Shown: piece by piece, positions 1,171 to 7,278 of the stretch
How positions within the stretch are numbered: the stretch's first letter is position 1
How the letters are laid out: each line of letters starts with the position of its first letter
DNA from: Firmicutes bacterium UBA7709
Lineage (GTDB): Bacteria; Bacillota_A; Clostridia; Peptostreptococcales; Anaerovoracaceae
Length of the DNA stretch: 7,307 nucleotides
Assembly (NCBI GenBank): GCA_002482405.1
Contig: DLFX01000260.1
Coordinates: 1,672 to 8,978, forward strand
Direction of reading: 5' to 3'
Program-made: the position numbers and the translations under genes
Notes under the pieces: model-generated
What the model was told of the DNA's origin: nothing
Seen by the model: the letters and a program-made list of their open reading frames with translations, nothing else
Database searches by the model: none

Positions 1171-2916
1171 ATGAAAAATATTACCTTAAAGATCATAATT
1201 TCTCTCGTGTGCTGTTCCCTGATCATCGCGCTGATCCTGAGCGGCGTTGCCATTACAAAGAGCAATGCCGTCATGCGGACTGAGGTGAGGAAAGAGCTGG
1301 TTTACGCGTCCCAGAAATATGCAAGCCAGTTCAGCGCCGAGTTCCAAACCCAGGAAAATGTGGTGGACCTCATATGCACGATGGTCTCAGGCTGGTTTGA
1401 CGTCGAGGATTACACAAACGACAGGGAACGGTTTCTGGCCTTGGAAAAAAGGCTGGACCGGATCATAAAAAATACGATGGAAGACATTCCGGAAACCAGA
1501 AGCCTCTATTTTACGTTCAACCCGGAAACAAGCGGTGGGAACGATGAAATCTGGTATTTACGGAGCGAGAAAGGGAAGGTCTATTATACGGAGGCGGACA
1601 ATACCGTGGAAAACTGGCTGGTGGACGGCGCCAATGCCGACGCCTACTATTTTGACGCGATCCGAAAGGGAAAAAGCTGGAGAAGCGTCGAGTACGATCA
1701 GTACCTGAAAACGTATTCCGTAACCTATTCCCGGGCGTGCAGGGACAAAAGCGGCGCACTGGTCGGAGTCATGGGCACAGACATACTGATTGACCATATC
1801 TTCGATACGGTTAAGCACATCCAGATGCGGGAGGGCGGCTCCGCCTTCCTGACGGACGGCGATTTCAATTATCTTGCCGGCAGCACCTCGAAGGAGGACT
1901 TCGCCGTGATGAAAAAGGACGGTATTCTGAATCTGCCGGCGGATTTTCAGAATTCTTCCGACTATACCGCGGTGAAAGGGGAGCATTACCTGACGACCTA
2001 TGCCAAGACGTCCAACGGGTGGATCGTGGCGCTGGTGCAAAGGGAGGAAACCTTGCTGAGGCCTATTCAGGATATGAAGAGGATTCTCTACACCATGGCG
2101 CTCATCACCCTGATCGCAGTTCTTGCCTACTCCTACTATTTCTCCAAGAAATCCCTCGCGCCTATCGTGCAGGAATTCGAGGAAAAAGACATCATCATGC
2201 TGCATCAGTCCAGACAGGCCAAGCTGGGAGAAATGGTCGGGAACATCGCCCACCAGTGGAAGCAGCCCCTGAACGTCATGAACATCATCCTGTCCAACCT
2301 CTGGGACGATTTTGGCCAGGGCAATCTCACGGAAGAACAGCTGAAATCCCATATCGAAGATATGCGGTCCCATATCAGGAATATGTCGGGCACGGTGGAT
2401 GATTTTGCGGACTTTTTAAAACCTTCCAGAAAGAAAGAAAAATTTTCTGTGAATGAAGCCATGGACACCACCCTGGGGTTGATGACGGAAAGCATCAAGA
2501 TCAACAGGATCTCGGTCGTCAGAGAGTCTGGGGAGAAGGCGGAGATTCTAGGCTACAGAAACGAATTTTGTCAGGGAATTTTCAATATACTCAACAATGC
2601 CAGAGACGCCATCATAGACTCGGATCCCGAAAAGCGTGAGATCCGGATCAGGATCTATTCCGTCAGGGATGGGAAACAGAGGTCCGCCGCCGTGATCGAC
2701 ATCACCAACCAAGGAGATCAGATCGCCCCGGAGATCATAAACCGGCTGTTTGAGCCTTATTTCACCACAAAGGATGAAAAGGGCGGCACCGGGATCGGCT
2801 TGTACCTGACGAAGGAAATCATCGAGTCCCATATGAACGGAACGGTGGAGATGTTCAACGTGCCGGGAGGAGTCTGCTGCAGGGTCACGATTCCCAAGGA
2901 GGTTCACAATGACTGA
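1171..2916 (+). CDS. Cache-domain membrane sensor histidine kinase
   Basis: 581-residue sensor kinase that should autophosphorylate on a histidine in response to an extracytoplasmic signal and pass the phosphate to the regulator encoded next. Helix 1 is at residues about 7-29. Residues about 33-300 form an extracellular region with Cache-like features (YFDAIRKGKSW, the VTYSRACRDKSGALVGVMGTDI strand series). Helix 2 is at about 305-325. A short helical linker without an obvious HAMP leads to the H-box, with His361 in GNIAHQWKQPLN. The ATPase domain has the N-box (NILNNA, Asn472/Asn476), the F-box FEPYFTTK (528-534) and the G2 box GGTGIGL (538-544). The G1 position reads NQGDQ (513-517) instead of DxGxG, and the residue after His361 is Gln, not Glu/Asp. 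HQWKQPL/HQWRQPL kinases form a known subgroup, so activity is still likely. The ATG at 1171 follows AAGG by 6 bases. The stop overlaps the regulator start by 8 bases, indicating translational coupling. The ligand cannot be read from the sequence. Confidence 0.93.
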   Translation: MKNITLKIIISLVCCSLIIALILSGVAITKSNAVMRTEVRKELVYASQKYASQFSAEFQTQENVVDLICTMVSGWFDVEDYTNDRERFLALEKRLDRIIKNTMEDIPETRSLYFTFNPETSGGNDEIWYLRSEKGKVYYTEADNTVENWLVDGANADAYYFDAIRKGKSWRSVEYDQYLKTYSVTYSRACRDKSGALVGVMGTDILIDHIFDTVKHIQMREGGSAFLTDGDFNYLAGSTSKEDFAVMKKDGILNLPADFQNSSDYTAVKGEHYLTTYAKTSNGWIVALVQREETLLRPIQDMKRILYTMALITLIAVLAYSYYFSKKSLAPIVQEFEEKDIIMLHQSRQAKLGEMVGNIAHQWKQPLNVMNIILSNLWDDFGQGNLTEEQLKSHIEDMRSHIRNMSGTVDDFADFLKPSRKKEKFSVNEAMDTTLGLMTESIKINRISVVRESGEKAEILGYRNEFCQGIFNILNNARDAIIDSDPEKREIRIRIYSVRDGKQRSAAVIDITNQGDQIAPEIINRLFEPYFTTKDEKGGTGIGLYLTKEIIESHMNGTVEMFNVPGGVCCRVTIPKEVHND

Positions 2917-3664
2917 TTTGAAATGCCTTCGGCTTTTATACGTGGAGGACGACGAGGCAACGAGGGAAGCATTTTCGAAATTTCTGAAGCTGCGGGTAGG
3001 AAAGCTGTACACCGCCGCAAACGGAGAGGAAGGCATCCAGAAGTTCTTTGCGTACAAGCCGAATCTGCTGATCGTGGATCTGATCATGCCCGGAATGTCC
3101 GGCCTCGAAATGATAGGGGAGATCCGGCGGCACGAGAAAGAGTGCGGAATACTGATCACCTCGTCGGTCAACGACGTCGGCACCATTCTGGAAGCGGTGG
3201 ACCTCAAGATCGACCATTATATCGTCAAGCCCATCGATCCTGAGGACCTGGAAAAGAAGCTCGCCAGGATCGCAAAGGAGATACTGGACAGGGAGGGAAA
3301 ACTCCGCGCCGTCAATCTCGCGCGGCTTGAGAACAGCGGCGCCATGGAGGACTTGATCCGGAGGGATTTTCTGCGGATTTTGAAAACCTATTCCGGGAAG
3401 GGGCCCCAGGACGTCAAGGTGCTCCTGTTTGAAAACCAGGTGGAAATCACCGCCATAGATGCGGCTACCGTGATGGAAAGGACCGTAAGCGCCAACCGGA
3501 GGAATCTTTCCATGACGGAGCAGTTTCGCAGGCTTTTCTATGAAGAGATATCGGGGAAATTGGAAGAATGCGTGGAGCTCGCAACGGGTTATCCTGTGAA
3601 GGTGACGTCCCTTCAAACAAATGAATCCAAAAAAACTGACAAAATAGTATTGACAATTGTATAG
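2909..3664 (+). CDS. Response regulator: receiver domain plus DUF2294/MpsC-like domain
   Basis: 251-residue cytoplasmic partner of the upstream kinase. Residues 1-120 are a complete receiver domain: acidic pocket Glu13/Asp14/Asp15, phospho-acceptor Asp57 in LLIVDLIMPGMSG, switch residues Thr84/Ser85, and Lys107-Pro108 in IVKPIDP. After a helical linker (about 121-142), residues about 143-251 show no helix-turn-helix, AAA+, GGDEF, HD-GYP or EAL signature. The pattern RRDFLRILKTYSGKGPQDVKV, a central strand region, and a closing EEISGKLEECVELATGYPVKV with a final strand agrees with my recollection of DUF2294 (MpsC-like family). That assignment is from memory and needs a profile search. Output is therefore probably protein-protein or membrane-linked rather than direct DNA binding. 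The start is fixed by AAGGAGGT at 2896-2903, 5 bases before the ATG and inside the kinase gene. The last codons contain a promoter for downstream transcription. Confidence 0.9.
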   Translation: MTDLKCLRLLYVEDDEATREAFSKFLKLRVGKLYTAANGEEGIQKFFAYKPNLLIVDLIMPGMSGLEMIGEIRRHEKECGILITSSVNDVGTILEAVDLKIDHYIVKPIDPEDLEKKLARIAKEILDREGKLRAVNLARLENSGAMEDLIRRDFLRILKTYSGKGPQDVKVLLFENQVEITAIDAATVMERTVSANRRNLSMTEQFRRLFYEEISGKLEECVELATGYPVKVTSLQTNESKKTDKIVLTIV

Positions 3665-3678
3665 AAAATTAGTAAAAT
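3650..3678 (+). promoter_or_regulatory. Near-consensus housekeeping (sigma-A-type) promoter
   Basis: TTGACA at 3650-3655 and TAAAAT at 3673-3678 are separated by exactly 17 bases, with A+T-rich flanks. The -35 hexamer matches consensus perfectly and the -10 at five of six positions. The -35 lies inside the last codons of the response regulator gene. The predicted start point is about 3685. It would transcribe the structured region ending at the 3779-3822 terminator and, with read-through, the glycine riboswitch and the two genes beyond. No better promoter is visible before the riboswitch. Confidence 0.7.
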
Positions 3679-3684
3679 TCTGAT

Positions 3685-3822
3685 AAGAATTATGCAAATC
3701 ATTGTTTGAGGTGCATGATTTCACTTCTGTAATTGATGTTGCAGTAATAGAGTGAGAATCGCAGGATTAGCTCTCTACAGACCAACGCAAAGCATTGCTA
3801 TGCTCGCGAAGGTCTTTTTTTT
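3685..3822 (+). ncRNA. Candidate small structured RNA or attenuator leader
   Basis: This non-coding stretch has its own strong promoter and ends at a terminator, giving a predicted RNA of about 138 nt. Visible hairpins: AAATCAT (3696-3702) with ATGATTT (3715-3721); and AGAG (3749-3752) with CTCT (3771-3774), enclosing AATC/GATT around a GCAG loop (3757-3768). The terminator follows. I do not recognise an RNA family: it lacks visible features of T-box, 6S, SRP or common riboswitches. It could be a free small RNA, or the first half of a leader in which termination must be relieved before the glycine riboswitch is transcribed. Confidence 0.4.
3779..3822 (+). terminator. Rho-independent terminator upstream of the glycine riboswitch
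   Basis: AGACC (3779-3783) pairs with GGTCT (3811-3815). After a 2x2 AA/AA internal loop come CGC/GCG, then an asymmetric internal loop, then GCAT/ATGC closing a TGCT tetraloop. The right arm runs directly into a T8 tract at 3815-3822. It would end transcription from the kinase/regulator genes and from the promoter at 3650. The interrupted stem suggests incomplete or conditional termination. Confidence 0.75.
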
Positions 3823-3856
3823 ATTCTGCGCATCATGAACATCAAACTGAATATTT

Positions 3857-4008
3857 CGGATGAAAGCAGCCCTAGACATTGCAGACGCCTACCAAACATT
3901 TGCTGCGCAAATGTGGTTAGGTTCGTAGCGGAAAAATGCAAGGCCGAAGCAGCAAACGAGCGCGGTGGCAGTCGCGCTCCGGAAACTAGCAGGCAAAAGG
4001 AAGGCTGC
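3857..4008 (+). promoter_or_regulatory. Glycine riboswitch, aptamer 1 of a tandem pair
   Basis: The conserved core segments appear in the right order: GGCCGAAGCAGCAAA (3942-3956), equivalent to the family's GCCGAAGGGGCAA, and CAGGCAAAAGGAA (3990-4002), equivalent to CAGGYAAAAGGAC. P1 is GCAGCC (3866-3871) with GGCTGC (4003-4008). P2 starts with TTGCA (3879-3883) and TGCAA (3937-3941) and continues into a long arm: CCTACC with GGTTAGG, then ACATTTG (3895-3901) with CAAATGT (3908-3914). P3 is capped by a 7-bp stem, GAGCGCG (3958-3964) with CGCGCTC (3973-3979). The leader CGGATGA (3857-3863) and linker CGGACGA (4009-4015) could form the leader-linker kink-turn known in tandem glycine riboswitches. 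The P2 arm is longer than usual; the usual GGAGAG segment reads CTAGACA. Confidence 0.88.
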
Positions 4009-4010
4009 CG

Positions 4011-4083
4011 GACGATACTTTGGAGAGATTCCGTTCAATCGGAGCGCCAACGAGGAAAGAACCAACAGGCAAAAGGACAGAGG
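4011..4083 (+). promoter_or_regulatory. Glycine riboswitch, aptamer 2 of a tandem pair
   Basis: This aptamer follows the GGACGA linker (4010-4015), as in the classical cooperative tandem arrangement. P1 is CTTTG (4018-4022) with CAGAG (4078-4082), including one G-U pair. The conserved GGAGAGA is at 4022-4028. P2 is TCCG (4030-4033) with CGGA (4040-4043). GCGCCAACGAGGAAAG (4044-4059) matches the GCGCCGAAGGGGCAA core with substitutions, and CAGGCAAAAGGACAGAG (4066-4082) is an essentially perfect 3' core. P3 is nearly absent: about GG/CC around AAAGAA. The core binding segments are kept, so ligand binding is plausible but should be tested separately from aptamer 1. It lies about 113 bases upstream of the dehydrogenase start. 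Confidence 0.88.
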
Positions 4084-4195
4084 AATTATGACCGGAAGCG
4101 ATCATAGGAATATTTGGTTTCCAACTGCTGAGTAAGATAAGCCGGCGGCAAGAATGGGAAGTCCGCCCGGCGCCAAAAGCAAGGAGGAAAAAAAG
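4084..4195 (+). promoter_or_regulatory. Riboswitch expression region with G+C-rich hairpin and ribosome binding site
   Basis: Candidate pairings between aptamer 2 and the start codon: TATGA (4087-4091) with TCATA (4102-4106); TTGG (4114-4117) with CCAA (4121-4124); and a strong hairpin, GCCGGCGG (4141-4148) with CCG-c-CCGGC (4163-4171). TTGGTT (4114-4119) can instead pair with AACCAA (4060-4065) inside aptamer 2. The hairpin is not followed by a T tract, so it is not a standard terminator. AAGGAGG (4181-4187) is a strong ribosome binding site 8 bases before ATG 4196 and is not obviously sequestered. The switching mechanism is therefore unresolved. Confidence 0.45.
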
Positions 4196-5536
4196 ATGAG
4201 AATGTTATTGGTAGGAGCAGGCGCCGTAGGAGAATCGATCCTGCGGATACTGGACACGAGAGACCCGAAGAGGACCTGGCTGGAACACGTAGTCGTAGCG
4301 GATTACAACCTGGAGAGGGCGAAGACTGTCTGCAGGCATTTAAACGGCAGCGACAGATACACGCCGGAATTTCTGGACGCTCACAAGAAGGATGATATCG
4401 TCGGGCTGATCAAAAAGTATAACTGCGACTACGTAATGGACGCCGCGTCGCCGTATTTGTCAAATACCATTTTTGACGCCGCGTTCGAAGGAGGAGCGAA
4501 CTACTCCAGCATGGGCACCTGGTCGGTACCCTACGATCCGCCGAGGTACGGCATCGGTCTTGAAAATTCTTTCAGCGAACCGATGTCCTGGTACAATTTC
4601 GCCGCTCATGAAGATTGGGCGAAGAAAGGTCAGATGGCGGTGATCTGCCTTGGGATCGACCCCGGCGTTGTGGACGTGTTTGCCAAGTTCGCGGCGGAGT
4701 ACTTATTTGACGAGCTTTATGAGATCCACGTCAAGGATGGCGGAAATCTGACGATCCCGGAGGCGGGAGAGGACGATATCACCTTCGGTTTCAACGTGTG
4801 GACGGTGCTGGATGAGTGTATGAATCCCAACGTCGAGTGGGATAAGGAGCGCGGATTTACCGTGGATCCGCCGTTCTCAGGCCTGGAAACCTTCGAGATG
4901 CCGGCAGGCGTAGGGGCAAACACGCTGGTTAAAATCGAGCATGAGGAGACGGTGCTCATGCCGAGATACCTCGAAAAGTACGGCCTCAGAAAATGCTCCT
5001 TCAAGAACGCTCTGGACGACAATCTGGTAGACGCCCTGAAGGTGATCAACGCGCTGGGCCTGAGAAGTCTCAAGCCGGTAGAGGTGGATGGCGTCCAGGT
5101 AGTCCCCAGGGACGTGGTCGCCGCCTGTGCGCCGCAGCCTGTGGATCTTGGAGACGAGATGATCGGGAAAATGTGCGTCGGGATCCACTGCAAGGGAATG
5201 AAAGACGGAAAGACCAGAGAAATCTTTATGTACCAGCCTTTCGACAACCAGCTTTCCATGAAAAACTGGAATATGCAGGCTGTCGTCGCCCAGACAGGCT
5301 TTGGAGCGGCTGTTGGGATCGAAATGATCGGCAAGGGTATCTGGAAGGACGCCGGCGTATTTTCACCGGAATACTTCGATCCGATCCCCTATCTGCAGGT
5401 CATGGACGAAGCGGGCTTTGAATACGGTATCGTAGAAATGGATTCCGAGTATAAAGCCATCCACGATAAAAAAATTATGTCGCAGATTTACAGAGAAGCG
5501 GCAAAGGCACACAAGGAAAAGAGCGCGAAGCGCTAA
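4196..5536 (+). CDS. Saccharopine dehydrogenase-family NAD(P)-dependent oxidoreductase
   Basis: 446-residue cytoplasmic oxidoreductase of the saccharopine dehydrogenase / saccharopine reductase-like superfamily. These enzymes make or cleave secondary amines joining two amino acids or polyamine parts, using NAD(P)(H). An N-terminal Rossmann fold is clear: LLVGAGAVGES with Gly7/Gly9/Gly12, and Asp36 in VVVADYN at the end of the second strand. Other family-like elements are ASPYLSN (84-90), GIDPGVVDVF (153-162) leading into the catalytic/dimer domain, and a C-terminal QTGFGAAVG region (366-374) followed by GVFSPEYFDPIPYL. The substrate cannot be assigned: I see no specific match to lysine, carboxynorspermidine or homospermidine enzymes. 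ATG 4196 is chosen because AAGGAGG lies 8 bases upstream; an in-frame ATG at 4154 would place 14 low-complexity residues over the leader hairpin. The gene is first after the glycine riboswitch and is followed by an amino acid permease, suggesting uptake or export linked to catabolism of a glycine-related compound. Confidence 0.88.
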   Translation: MRMLLVGAGAVGESILRILDTRDPKRTWLEHVVVADYNLERAKTVCRHLNGSDRYTPEFLDAHKKDDIVGLIKKYNCDYVMDAASPYLSNTIFDAAFEGGANYSSMGTWSVPYDPPRYGIGLENSFSEPMSWYNFAAHEDWAKKGQMAVICLGIDPGVVDVFAKFAAEYLFDELYEIHVKDGGNLTIPEAGEDDITFGFNVWTVLDECMNPNVEWDKERGFTVDPPFSGLETFEMPAGVGANTLVKIEHEETVLMPRYLEKYGLRKCSFKNALDDNLVDALKVINALGLRSLKPVEVDGVQVVPRDVVAACAPQPVDLGDEMIGKMCVGIHCKGMKDGKTREIFMYQPFDNQLSMKNWNMQAVVAQTGFGAAVGIEMIGKGIWKDAGVFSPEYFDPIPYLQVMDEAGFEYGIVEMDSEYKAIHDKKIMSQIYREAAKAHKEKSAKR

Positions 5537-5542
5537 AAGGGT

Positions 5543-5590
5543 AAAAAATGGTCTGAGCCGTTCTCAGAGCGGTTCAGACCATAAATTTTT
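5543..5590 (+). terminator. Intercistronic hairpin, possible bidirectional or partial terminator
   Basis: ATGGTCTGAGCCG (5548-5560) pairs with CGGTTCAGACCAT (5570-5582): 13 bp with a single G-U pair and a 9-base loop. It is flanked by A6 (5543-5548) on the left and AAATTTTT (5583-5590) on the right. This symmetry could terminate on either strand. It sits 11 bases after the dehydrogenase stop and just before the permease ribosome binding site. The tail (AAA then T5) is imperfect, so partial read-through or mRNA 3'-end protection is as likely as full termination. No separate permease promoter is evident in the remaining 20 bases. Confidence 0.7.
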
Positions 5591-5610: not shown

Positions 5611-7278
5611 ATGAGCGGAAACACTGTTCATGGCGTTGCTGGTCTGAAAAAGCACAAGATCAAAATGTCGGGCGTAGTATTCATGATCTACTGCCTCGTT
5701 GCCGCCGGCGCGTTTGGAATCGAAGAGATGGTTCCCATCAGCGGCCCCGGACTGACTTTGCTGATGCTGGTCCTATTCCCGATTTTCTGGGCACTGCCCA
5801 TCAGTGAAATGATCGCTGAACTGGCTTCTGCCAGGCCTGCCGAAGGAGGGCCCTATATCTGGGCAAGGGATACCCTGGGAGAATTCTGGGGCTGGCAGGT
5901 AGGCTTTTGGAGCACATCTTCCACATGGCTGCAGCAGGCGCTGTACGTCGTACTTATTACAGGATACATGGGAAAATTTTTTCCCATGTCCAACACGATG
6001 GAATGGGTCATTAAATTAGGGGTAATTGCGGTCTTCACCATCATCAACCTGCTGGGAATCGAAGAGGTCTCCAAGGTGAGCACCATCCTTTCCCTCTGCG
6101 TTATCGCCGGCTTTACGGTGGTAACCGTCGTAGGACTTGCCAACTGGAATCATAATCCAATCGAACCCTTTATGAATCCTGAAGAAGGCCTTGTGGGCAA
6201 CCTCGGCGGATCCATCTGTATCGCCATCTGGATGTTCTGCGGTTATGAGTGCATGTCGGTAATGGGGGGAGAATACGAAGATCCCCAGGTCATTCCGAAG
6301 GGACTGATCCTGGCGATGCCGCTCATCGCCCTCAGTTACTTCCTGCCGACCCTGGCGGGCCTGGCCTCTGTGGGAAGCTGGGAAAACTGGGCGGTGGAAG
6401 GCGATGGAGCCGTAGGGTACATGGACGTTCTGATCACTTATGTGGGGCCGGCAGCAGGCCTTGCCTTCCTGGTGATCGCCGTGCTGTCCAACTGTTCGAT
6501 TTTCAATGCCTATATCCTTTCCGGATCAAGGGGATTTTTCGTCATGGCGGATGACCACCTGTTCCCGAGATTTATGGTAAGACTGAGCAAAAATAGAAGA
6601 GTTCCCGTGGTGAGCATCCTGGCCATGGCCGGATTTACCATACTCCTGTGCCAGTGGGATTTCACCGCGTTGGTCATGGCTACGACGCCGCTGATGCTGT
6701 ATCTCTACATGGCCCTTGCCATAGCGGTGAGGAAGCTGAGAAAGATCTATCCGATAGAGGAGAGAAAAGAGAAAGGGCTCTTTGTGATCAAGGGCGGAAA
6801 TTTCGGCCTGAACTTCATGACGGGTCTGCCCTTTGTCATTTCCGCCATCGCCCTCTATGTAAACGGTACGGAATATTTCCTCGCCGGATTCTTACTTCTT
6901 CTGGCCGGCCTGCTGGGTTATCTAGCCTGCAAATGGTTTTACGGCGGACTTTATCGGGTGGATCCCGAGCATTATCCCCTCAACCCCAGGACGAAGCTGG
7001 GCCTCGGAGATACGAAGCAAGTGGGCCTTTACATCCTGCTGAGCGGCATCGTTGCGCTGGCGGGCTCCCTCCTCCTCTACCTTTATGAAGGAAGCTGGGG
7101 CGAGGAGTACTATCTTGAAACCTATGGAAGCGGCCTCTTCAGCAACTTCTGGGGTATGCTGGATCTTTGCAGATACGGAGGCATTGCACTGATCGTCATA
7201 GGCTTCATCATTATAAGAGTCGCAAAAAAGATCGAAATACCGGAGCCTCCCGCGGCCCTTGAAGAAACACAGGGCTAA
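5611..7278 (+). CDS. APC-superfamily amino acid/polyamine permease
   Basis: 555-residue inner-membrane secondary transporter. The APC signature is clear. Helix 1 contains the unwound glycine region GAFGIEEM (33-40). The helix 2-3 connection reads SARPAEGGPYIWARDTLGEFWGWQVGFW (73-100). Helix 6 has CGYECMSVMGGEYEDPQVIPKG (210-231), close in style to the YEGxxxLAGEVENP motif of polyamine/amino acid-polyamine transporters. Hydrophobic segments at about 20-42, 46-66, 90-120, 132-150, 156-178, 198-218, 231-256, 273-300, 333-348, 350-372, 402-418, 421-441, 471-491 and 520-537 suggest 14 helices. The last two follow the usual 12-helix core and flank a roughly 28-residue aromatic loop. ATG 5611 has AAGGAG 7 bases upstream (5598-5603). 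The substrate is unresolved (amino acid, polyamine or a derivative). Pairing with the dehydrogenase and the upstream riboswitch suggests it moves that enzyme's substrate or a glycine-linked amino acid. Confidence 0.9.
   Translation: MSGNTVHGVAGLKKHKIKMSGVVFMIYCLVAAGAFGIEEMVPISGPGLTLLMLVLFPIFWALPISEMIAELASARPAEGGPYIWARDTLGEFWGWQVGFWSTSSTWLQQALYVVLITGYMGKFFPMSNTMEWVIKLGVIAVFTIINLLGIEEVSKVSTILSLCVIAGFTVVTVVGLANWNHNPIEPFMNPEEGLVGNLGGSICIAIWMFCGYECMSVMGGEYEDPQVIPKGLILAMPLIALSYFLPTLAGLASVGSWENWAVEGDGAVGYMDVLITYVGPAAGLAFLVIAVLSNCSIFNAYILSGSRGFFVMADDHLFPRFMVRLSKNRRVPVVSILAMAGFTILLCQWDFTALVMATTPLMLYLYMALAIAVRKLRKIYPIEERKEKGLFVIKGGNFGLNFMTGLPFVISAIALYVNGTEYFLAGFLLLLAGLLGYLACKWFYGGLYRVDPEHYPLNPRTKLGLGDTKQVGLYILLSGIVALAGSLLLYLYEGSWGEEYYLETYGSGLFSNFWGMLDLCRYGGIALIVIGFIIIRVAKKIEIPEPPAALEETQG

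Follow-up and report, generated by a model that had tools for sequence, protein, structure and literature searches.

A tandem glycine-GGAnGA riboswitch before a saccharopine-dehydrogenase-like gene and an APC permease gene: glycine as an unlikely ligand and a polyamine-type amine as the best reading

Background

What does an RNA with the fold of a tandem glycine riboswitch sense when the genes behind it encode a saccharopine-dehydrogenase-like protein and an APC permease? The question is raised by a 7,307-nucleotide stretch of DNA from Firmicutes bacterium UBA7709 (contig DLFX01000260.1; the whole stretch analyzed is called the window). An earlier note on this DNA had recognized two glycine-type aptamers joined by a GGACGA linker and had made glycine, or a compound releasing it, a strong lead for the function of two otherwise unassigned genes.

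Results

Scanning with cmscan against Rfam assigned positions 3856-4084 of the forward strand to the tandem glycine-GGAnGA riboswitch family RF03166: the match covered the whole model (1-177 of 177) at 140 bits (E 6.1e-31) against a cut-off of 110. It was the sole Rfam match in the whole window at E up to 1, one overlapping, lower-scoring match of the same clan having been discarded by cmscan in its favor; the plain glycine model RF00504 was not the best match. Moreover, each half scored alone: aptamer 1 with the leader and linker strands (3856-4015, +) reached 66.2 bits (E 4.4e-14) and aptamer 2 (4018-4084, +), behind a short linker, reached 59.3 bits (E 2.5e-12). Thus the two aptamers claimed in the earlier note are real and lie where it had drawn them, its core strings are present in the sequence, and the covariance search it had proposed returned a significant full-length match, albeit to the RF03166 variant and not to plain glycine RF00504. 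The window RNA is a new member of an already known class.

In the RF03166 alignment the leader CGG pairs with GACG/A of the linker, flanked by unpaired GA-rich strands. The GGACGA linker, confirmed between the aptamers, is therefore the 3' half of a leader-linker helix, which we take to be the kink-turn of glycine riboswitches. A pattern search showed an additional hairpin within the aptamer-1 P2 arm (3886-3922, +). As a side observation, this P2-arm hairpin unit is found in four tandem copies, ~88 bases apart, in genome G231 (L163/L230), where one riboswitch arm seems to have been amplified.

For a survey of relatives, the genomes of 84,980 species, one per species and lacking contigs under 3 kb, were searched with an exact pattern of the aptamer-2 core. 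The search yielded 54 stretches, mostly titled Clostridia or other Bacillota, all 54 of which passed RF03166 (112-175 bits). The first gene was saccharopine-dehydrogenase-like (cluster C0) at 47 loci, a CDF-type transporter at six (L008, L009, L014, L028, L030 and L038; called by Pfam for L009, the other first-gene proteins being 61-67% identical to it) and an APC permease at one (L022, with the dehydrogenase second); at L013 a CDF-type gene followed the dehydrogenase. The survey of homologous loci thus upheld the pairing with the dehydrogenase, which was the first gene in 47/54 and the second in one more, in counts that are not independent because of kinship among the loci.

Within the 296 genomes of the family of Sinanaerobacter, RF03166 exceeded its cut-off at at least 15 places in at least 12 genomes among the matches listed. 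Twelve of these 15 places precede DH-A, as the window enzyme and its orthologues are called here, and two (L133, L134) precede another protein of the dehydrogenase superfamily (the split by downstream gene covers 14 places, leaving out G115:C103; of the matches below 110 bits, L136 and L138-L154 were examined). The L134 protein is 26% identical to DH-A over the match, and that of L133 resembles it and has PF03435; together with L022 they place a second dehydrogenase subfamily behind RNA of the RF03166 class. RF03166 stands in front of 13 of the 17 close DH-A orthologues (68-80% identity), once at 108.5 bits, below the cut-off. Three orthologues (G098, G204, G157) had no RF03166 before DH-A among the matches listed and in their leaders, and that of G099 is cut by the contig end.

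The core of the aptamers was compared with that of plain glycine riboswitches. A U precedes CAGG in all 21 plain glycine aptamers from 11 carrier genomes, as judged by eye (the set being 30 loci minus nine at RF03166 places, L072-L075, L078-L081 and L083; three further rows had no locus); a regular expression caught the U in 18 of the 21 and chose another CAGG in L056, L069 and L077. In the variant, over the 54 loci and the window, the corresponding base of aptamer 1 was A in 44, G in four and U in seven of 55, so that it was A or G in 48/55. In the window, aptamer 1 reads UAGCAGG and aptamer 2 CCAACAGG; with G and A before CAGG, both lack the U of the plain glycine aptamers. The aptamer-2 base is A in the variant, as required by the search pattern for the 54 loci, and the AACCAAC core of aptamer 2 also occurs in loci found with the covariance model, which makes no demand on this base (e.g., L133 and L137). 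We assume that the base before CAGG lines the ligand pocket. The window RNA has the tandem fold and the CAGGCAAAAGGA core strings in common with RF00504, and its relatives also have a P1 linked to a terminator; it differs in the base before CAGG, in the P3 region of aptamer 2 and in the genes controlled.

Gene partners set the two classes apart in the same genomes. None of the 54 first genes behind the variant is a gene of glycine metabolism, whereas, of 14 genes that follow plain glycine riboswitches, 12 could be assigned to a named family, every one of them glycine-linked: gcvT (two), agcS-type symporters (six), GrdX, a sarcosine/glycine reductase subunit, serine hydroxymethyltransferase and thioredoxin reductase, the last presumably through glycine reductase (14 of 18 genes were used, leaving out L058, L068, L071 and L082; L067 and L076 gave no family). 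Since the partners differ in this way, glycine is an unlikely ligand of the window RNA. A plain glycine riboswitch was accordingly rejected as the class, RF03166 winning, the core U being lost and the downstream genes being not glycine-linked.

Weinberg and colleagues (PNAS, 2017) are said to be the source of the glycine variants, in an abstract that reportedly mentions variants no longer recognizing glycine. According to the available portion of a review, glycine variants with a mutated core reject glycine (PMC9481103), and we infer that RF03166 belongs among them. The accessible text of another paper mentions the GGAnGA family once, for a score threshold (PMC12452182). No reported ligand for glycine-GGAnGA or the glycine variants was found in the literature searched, which took in few subscription papers.

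At 48 of the 54 loci a hairpin followed by a T run has its 5' arm on the 3' strand of the aptamer-2 P1, while the same test gave 5/160 in windows further downstream and 0/165 in mononucleotide shuffles. Because they share this strand, P1 and terminator are mutually exclusive in the relatives, an overlap that would be the anatomy of a transcription switch turned ON by its ligand, as suits catabolism or detoxification of that ligand. Such a P1-strand terminator after the aptamers is absent from the window and from L010, L016, L023, L034, L044 and L045. Apart from the full-length match that it has in common with the class, the window is peculiar in this lack of a downstream terminator, in the longer P2 arm of aptamer 1 and in two added leader elements.

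The first of these, element (i) (3690-3822, +), is a structured RNA ending in a terminator-like hairpin and T run (about 3779-3822) that escaped a simple terminator scan. It recurs in L045, L137, L139 and L159, its fold has a z-score of -3.96 (0/200 shuffles as good), and it has no Rfam family, the best matches over 3640-3850 being at chance level. The window, L045 and L159 (alignment A4) served to build a covariance model, R1, which matched five of the 296 family genomes once each, namely G010 and G098 (the model's own) and G231, G273 and G281 (new). Four of the five matches lie within a DH-A leader, and the G273 match is on a different contig from its DH-A. Element (i) is thus a candidate second attenuator upstream of the riboswitch. 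A promoter-like site, TTGACA-17-TAAAAT (3650-3678, +), upstream of the leader fits 11 of 12 consensus positions, with a mean of 0.8 such sites in shuffles of the region, so that about one is expected by chance.

The other, element (iii) (4125-4187, +), has the form CUGCUGAGUAA - hairpin - AAAAGCAAGGAGG and lies over the ribosome-binding site; in its consensus, CUGCUGARUAA and AAAAGCAAGGAGG flank a hairpin of variable sequence. It is defined by pattern, with no covariance model, the variable hairpins being out of register in alignments A2 and A5, and cmscan gave it no Rfam family. The pattern occurs six times in five of the 296 family genomes (L155-L160), always before DH-A, and the reversed pattern had no match in the same genomes; among 391 genomes of the class it was found in one, the known Sinanaerobacter. 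A leader peptide was considered for the ORF of ~15 codons here and was rejected, as the frame is lost in L045 and L034 (by eye). Both elements precede DH-A without RF03166 in G098.

A TTTCCAA motif precedes element (iii) in six leaders of the window type (the window, L161, L162, L163, L164 and L166). In the window this motif has two possible pairing partners, one being the aptamer-2 core (paired in this way in the minimum-energy fold) and the other lying close to the ribosome-binding site. The predicted folds have -43.7 kcal/mol at the minimum and -41.2 kcal/mol with P1 forced, energies that do not settle the sign of control: if TTTCCAA is paired to the aptamer-2 core, this would speak for OFF in the window, whereas the terminators of the relatives would argue for ON.

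Downstream, the genes are as the earlier note had described them, and its broader picture of a tandem glycine-fold riboswitch ahead of a saccharopine-dehydrogenase-like gene and an APC permease gene was borne out; nor was any gcv gene found among the five window proteins scanned. The dehydrogenase gene, DH-A (4196-5536, +; PF03435, PF16653), is related to carboxyspermidine dehydrogenase, its protein is identical to one in public records (P0001), and its kin in the PDB are 4ina, 4rl6, 8deb and 8h4z. For the B. fragilis carboxyspermidine dehydrogenase, the available part of a report gives Glu188, His228, Glu229 and Glu230 as the active site (PMC10413350). By alignment, their equivalents in DH-A are E207, H249, E250 and E251. 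The window enzyme thus has both the His-Glu-Glu triad and the Glu188 equivalent of carboxy(nor)spermidine dehydrogenases, and the triad is kept in 42 of 43 DH-A proteins of at least 400 residues, the window included (the exception, L022, is of the other subfamily). DH-A therefore has fold, triad and Glu188 equivalent in common with carboxyspermidine/carboxynorspermidine dehydrogenase (NF043000; PDB 8deb), but it falls far under the NCBIfam NF043000 cut-off (148.6 vs 800 bits), Ser144 is replaced by Val, which counts against the amine reading, and most carriers show no strong match to the companion decarboxylase nspC.

In numbers, this was so for 35 of 40 carrier genomes, a set that consists of relatives and not of the window's own genome. 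The five with a strong or contig-cut nspC are the same five that carry stronger carboxyspermidine dehydrogenase matches (332-421 bits, also under 800), which argues that most carriers do not simply use DH-A as their enzyme of spermidine synthesis. That DH-A is the known step of spermidine synthesis was therefore rejected.

The second gene encodes an APC-family permease (5611-7278, +; PF13520, PF00324), whose best NCBIfam models, an amino acid transporter and a basic amino acid/polyamine antiporter, score far under their cut-offs. Between both genes, an inverted repeat followed by AAATTTTT (5548-5582, +; by eye) is possibly a partial terminator. Fifty-three neighborhoods were compared (40 reaching up to 20 kb, 11 reaching up to 8 kb, L123 and the window), of which 50 are distinct, L011, L041 and L047 repeating loci present in larger pieces. 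A PotD-PII-PotA-PotB-PotC cluster or its start lies near DH-A in 9/50, all nine at RF03166 loci (L191, L192, L200, L205, L213, L214, L216, L123 and L051; divergent in L214 and L051). An APC permease adjoins the dehydrogenase in 10/50 (the window, L208, L219, L222, L223, L225, L226, L228, L229 and L230; L226 and L228 have no RF03166, and the L225 dehydrogenase is of another subfamily). Pot cluster and dehydrogenase-adjacent APC permease occurred together in none of the 50, L221 having APC fragments ~4 kb off. The protein encoded between the PotD-type and PotA genes in L123, L191, L200, L205, L213 and L216 is of the PII family.

The Pot-type binding protein forms a distinct group present in 14 of 40 genomes (L123 is 64-70% identical to the other 13), and in eight of these 14 it is encoded within 10 kb of DH-A; three genomes that have it also carry a remoter PotD (37-38%). 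The solved structures closest to this protein are those of PotD and PotF. With the presumed aromatic ligand contacts of E. coli PotD as reference positions, alignment showed these contacts to be lost and WTEY, the Tyr of SNY, DD.RE and a later Asp to be retained; thus the ligand of this protein need not be spermidine or putrescine. In L123 a single-direction run comprises DH-A, PotD, PII, PotA, PotB, PotC, a second dehydrogenase and a putrescine aminotransferase (682.8 bits, cut-off 612). Homologues of the aminotransferase occur in 8/40 genomes and, among the compared neighborhoods, stand beside DH-A only in L123, which counts against an amine.

The CDF-type proteins align with zinc transporters, and in all seven (L008, L009, L013, L014, L028, L030 and L038) two of the four positions that we presume to form the zinc site are changed, with F or Y for Asp and A, E, S, V or G for His. 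This suggests that the CDF-type transporters behind the riboswitch may carry an unusual cargo. Among other neighbors, an arylsulfotransferase-family gene follows the riboswitch-controlled dehydrogenase in L007, L012, L019, L020 and L021 (identified by clustering, one Pfam-checked), a malic enzyme gene is present in L006 and, again by clustering, sugar-type ABC genes in L005 and L037; none of these lends support to amines.

Upstream of the leader lie genes for a sensor kinase with a dCache domain (1171-2916, +; PF02743, PF02518) and a response regulator with an MpsC-like domain (2909-3664, +; PF00072, PF10057). The order kinase-regulator-dehydrogenase-permease is kept in L219, L226 and L230, and in L226 (G098) the riboswitch is absent. 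The solved domains nearest to the dCache domain are 3li8 and 3lib, the latter named as an amine-motif domain in the accessible part of a paper (PMC10104139). The kinase was discarded as independent evidence for amines, as one position of the motif, the hydrophobic M215, is not matched in our alignment.

Discussion

With the Pot cluster in 9/50 neighborhoods, the APC permease in 10/50 and one putrescine aminotransferase, the gene partners suggest amines, and the ligand is best read, as judged from these partners alone, as a polyamine- or diamine-type amine or as a close derivative of one. A precedent for a variant aptamer shifted to a polyamine is the spermidine riboswitch, described in the available part of its report as a variant of the SAM aptamer (PMC10853860), a separate RNA with an unlike parent fold. 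We put the odds at about even (roughly 0.5) that the tandem variant RNA senses an amine handled by the downstream proteins and not glycine, with ON control through P1 and terminator in the relatives and control near the ribosome-binding site in the window. Both aptamers would keep the fold of a glycine riboswitch while, with the core positions changed, glycine would most likely no longer be sensed. The likely ligand would be an amine of the downstream enzyme or transporter: a diamine, a polyamine, a carboxylated polyamine or a short omega-amino acid. In most relatives, bound ligand would hold the P1 of aptamer 2 and so prevent the terminator on the same strand, turning ON genes for dehydrogenase, uptake or efflux. 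In the window, where this terminator is missing, control would probably be exerted near the ribosome-binding site, at element (iii).

The main rival, which we consider unlikely, has the RNA sense a larger or basic amino acid (lysine, ornithine or diaminobutyrate, for instance) that the permease would import and the dehydrogenase would join or split. Glycine being itself an amino acid, a widened pocket would be the smaller step; basic amino acid antiporters are among the best permease models, and the dehydrogenase superfamily includes saccharopine and lysine enzymes, as stated in the part of PMC10413350 available. Set against this are the PotABCD-type partner cluster and the putrescine aminotransferase, as well as an active-site triad that is that of the polyamine enzyme and not of saccharopine or lysine dehydrogenases. 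It is very improbable that the RNA still works as a glycine riboswitch, with glycine bound by both aptamers, and that its cargo is an unusual one in which the dehydrogenase uses glycine or a glycine-releasing compound. This reading can draw on the identical fold, on RF00504 scores of 30.2-38 bits for variant aptamers of relatives (some above the RF00504 cut-off of 32) and on the seven first aptamers that retain the U; however, the separate RF03166 model clearly wins, the first genes are unlike those after plain glycine riboswitches in the same genomes, and the review, in its available portion, speaks of variants that reject glycine (PMC9481103), with RF03166 counted among them by our reading. 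The strong lead to glycine drawn in the earlier note was thus not supported.

It is also improbable, if somewhat less so than glycine sensing, that the aptamer pair of the window is a relic and that element (i) or element (iii) does the regulating. Such a state would fit the missing terminator after the aptamers in the window, L034 and L045, the presence of both elements before the same gene without RF03166 in G098, and the absence of RF03166 from three of 17 close family orthologues, with one more contig-cut. Yet the window RNA scores 140 bits with conserved cores, and the TTTCCAA of six leaders precedes element (iii) and, in the window, has pairing options both at the aptamer-2 core and close to the ribosome-binding site, which would couple the riboswitch to that element.

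Returning to the amine reading, a fuller version of it can be offered tentatively, with a probability clearly below that given above. Here glycine-GGAnGA would be a retuned glycine aptamer that senses an amine of a polyamine pathway and turns ON an anaerobic secondary-amine dehydrogenase together with a specialized Pot-type importer, an APC permease or a CDF-type transporter lacking the zinc site; in the clade of the window, three stacked leader elements, including the upstream attenuator and the element over the ribosome-binding site, might integrate several signals.

Conclusions

Through this locus and its relatives, an orphan riboswitch class gains a gene network of dehydrogenases, a Pot-type importer, an APC permease, a CDF-type transporter and, once, a putrescine aminotransferase, and from this network comes a short list of candidate ligands. 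A trap is corrected as well: with an RNA that looks like a glycine sensor, two unassigned genes would have been given a function tied to glycine. Should the ligand prove to be a polyamine-type amine, the fold of the glycine riboswitch would have been retuned to a quite different molecule, and an amine pathway of gut bacteria would become visible.
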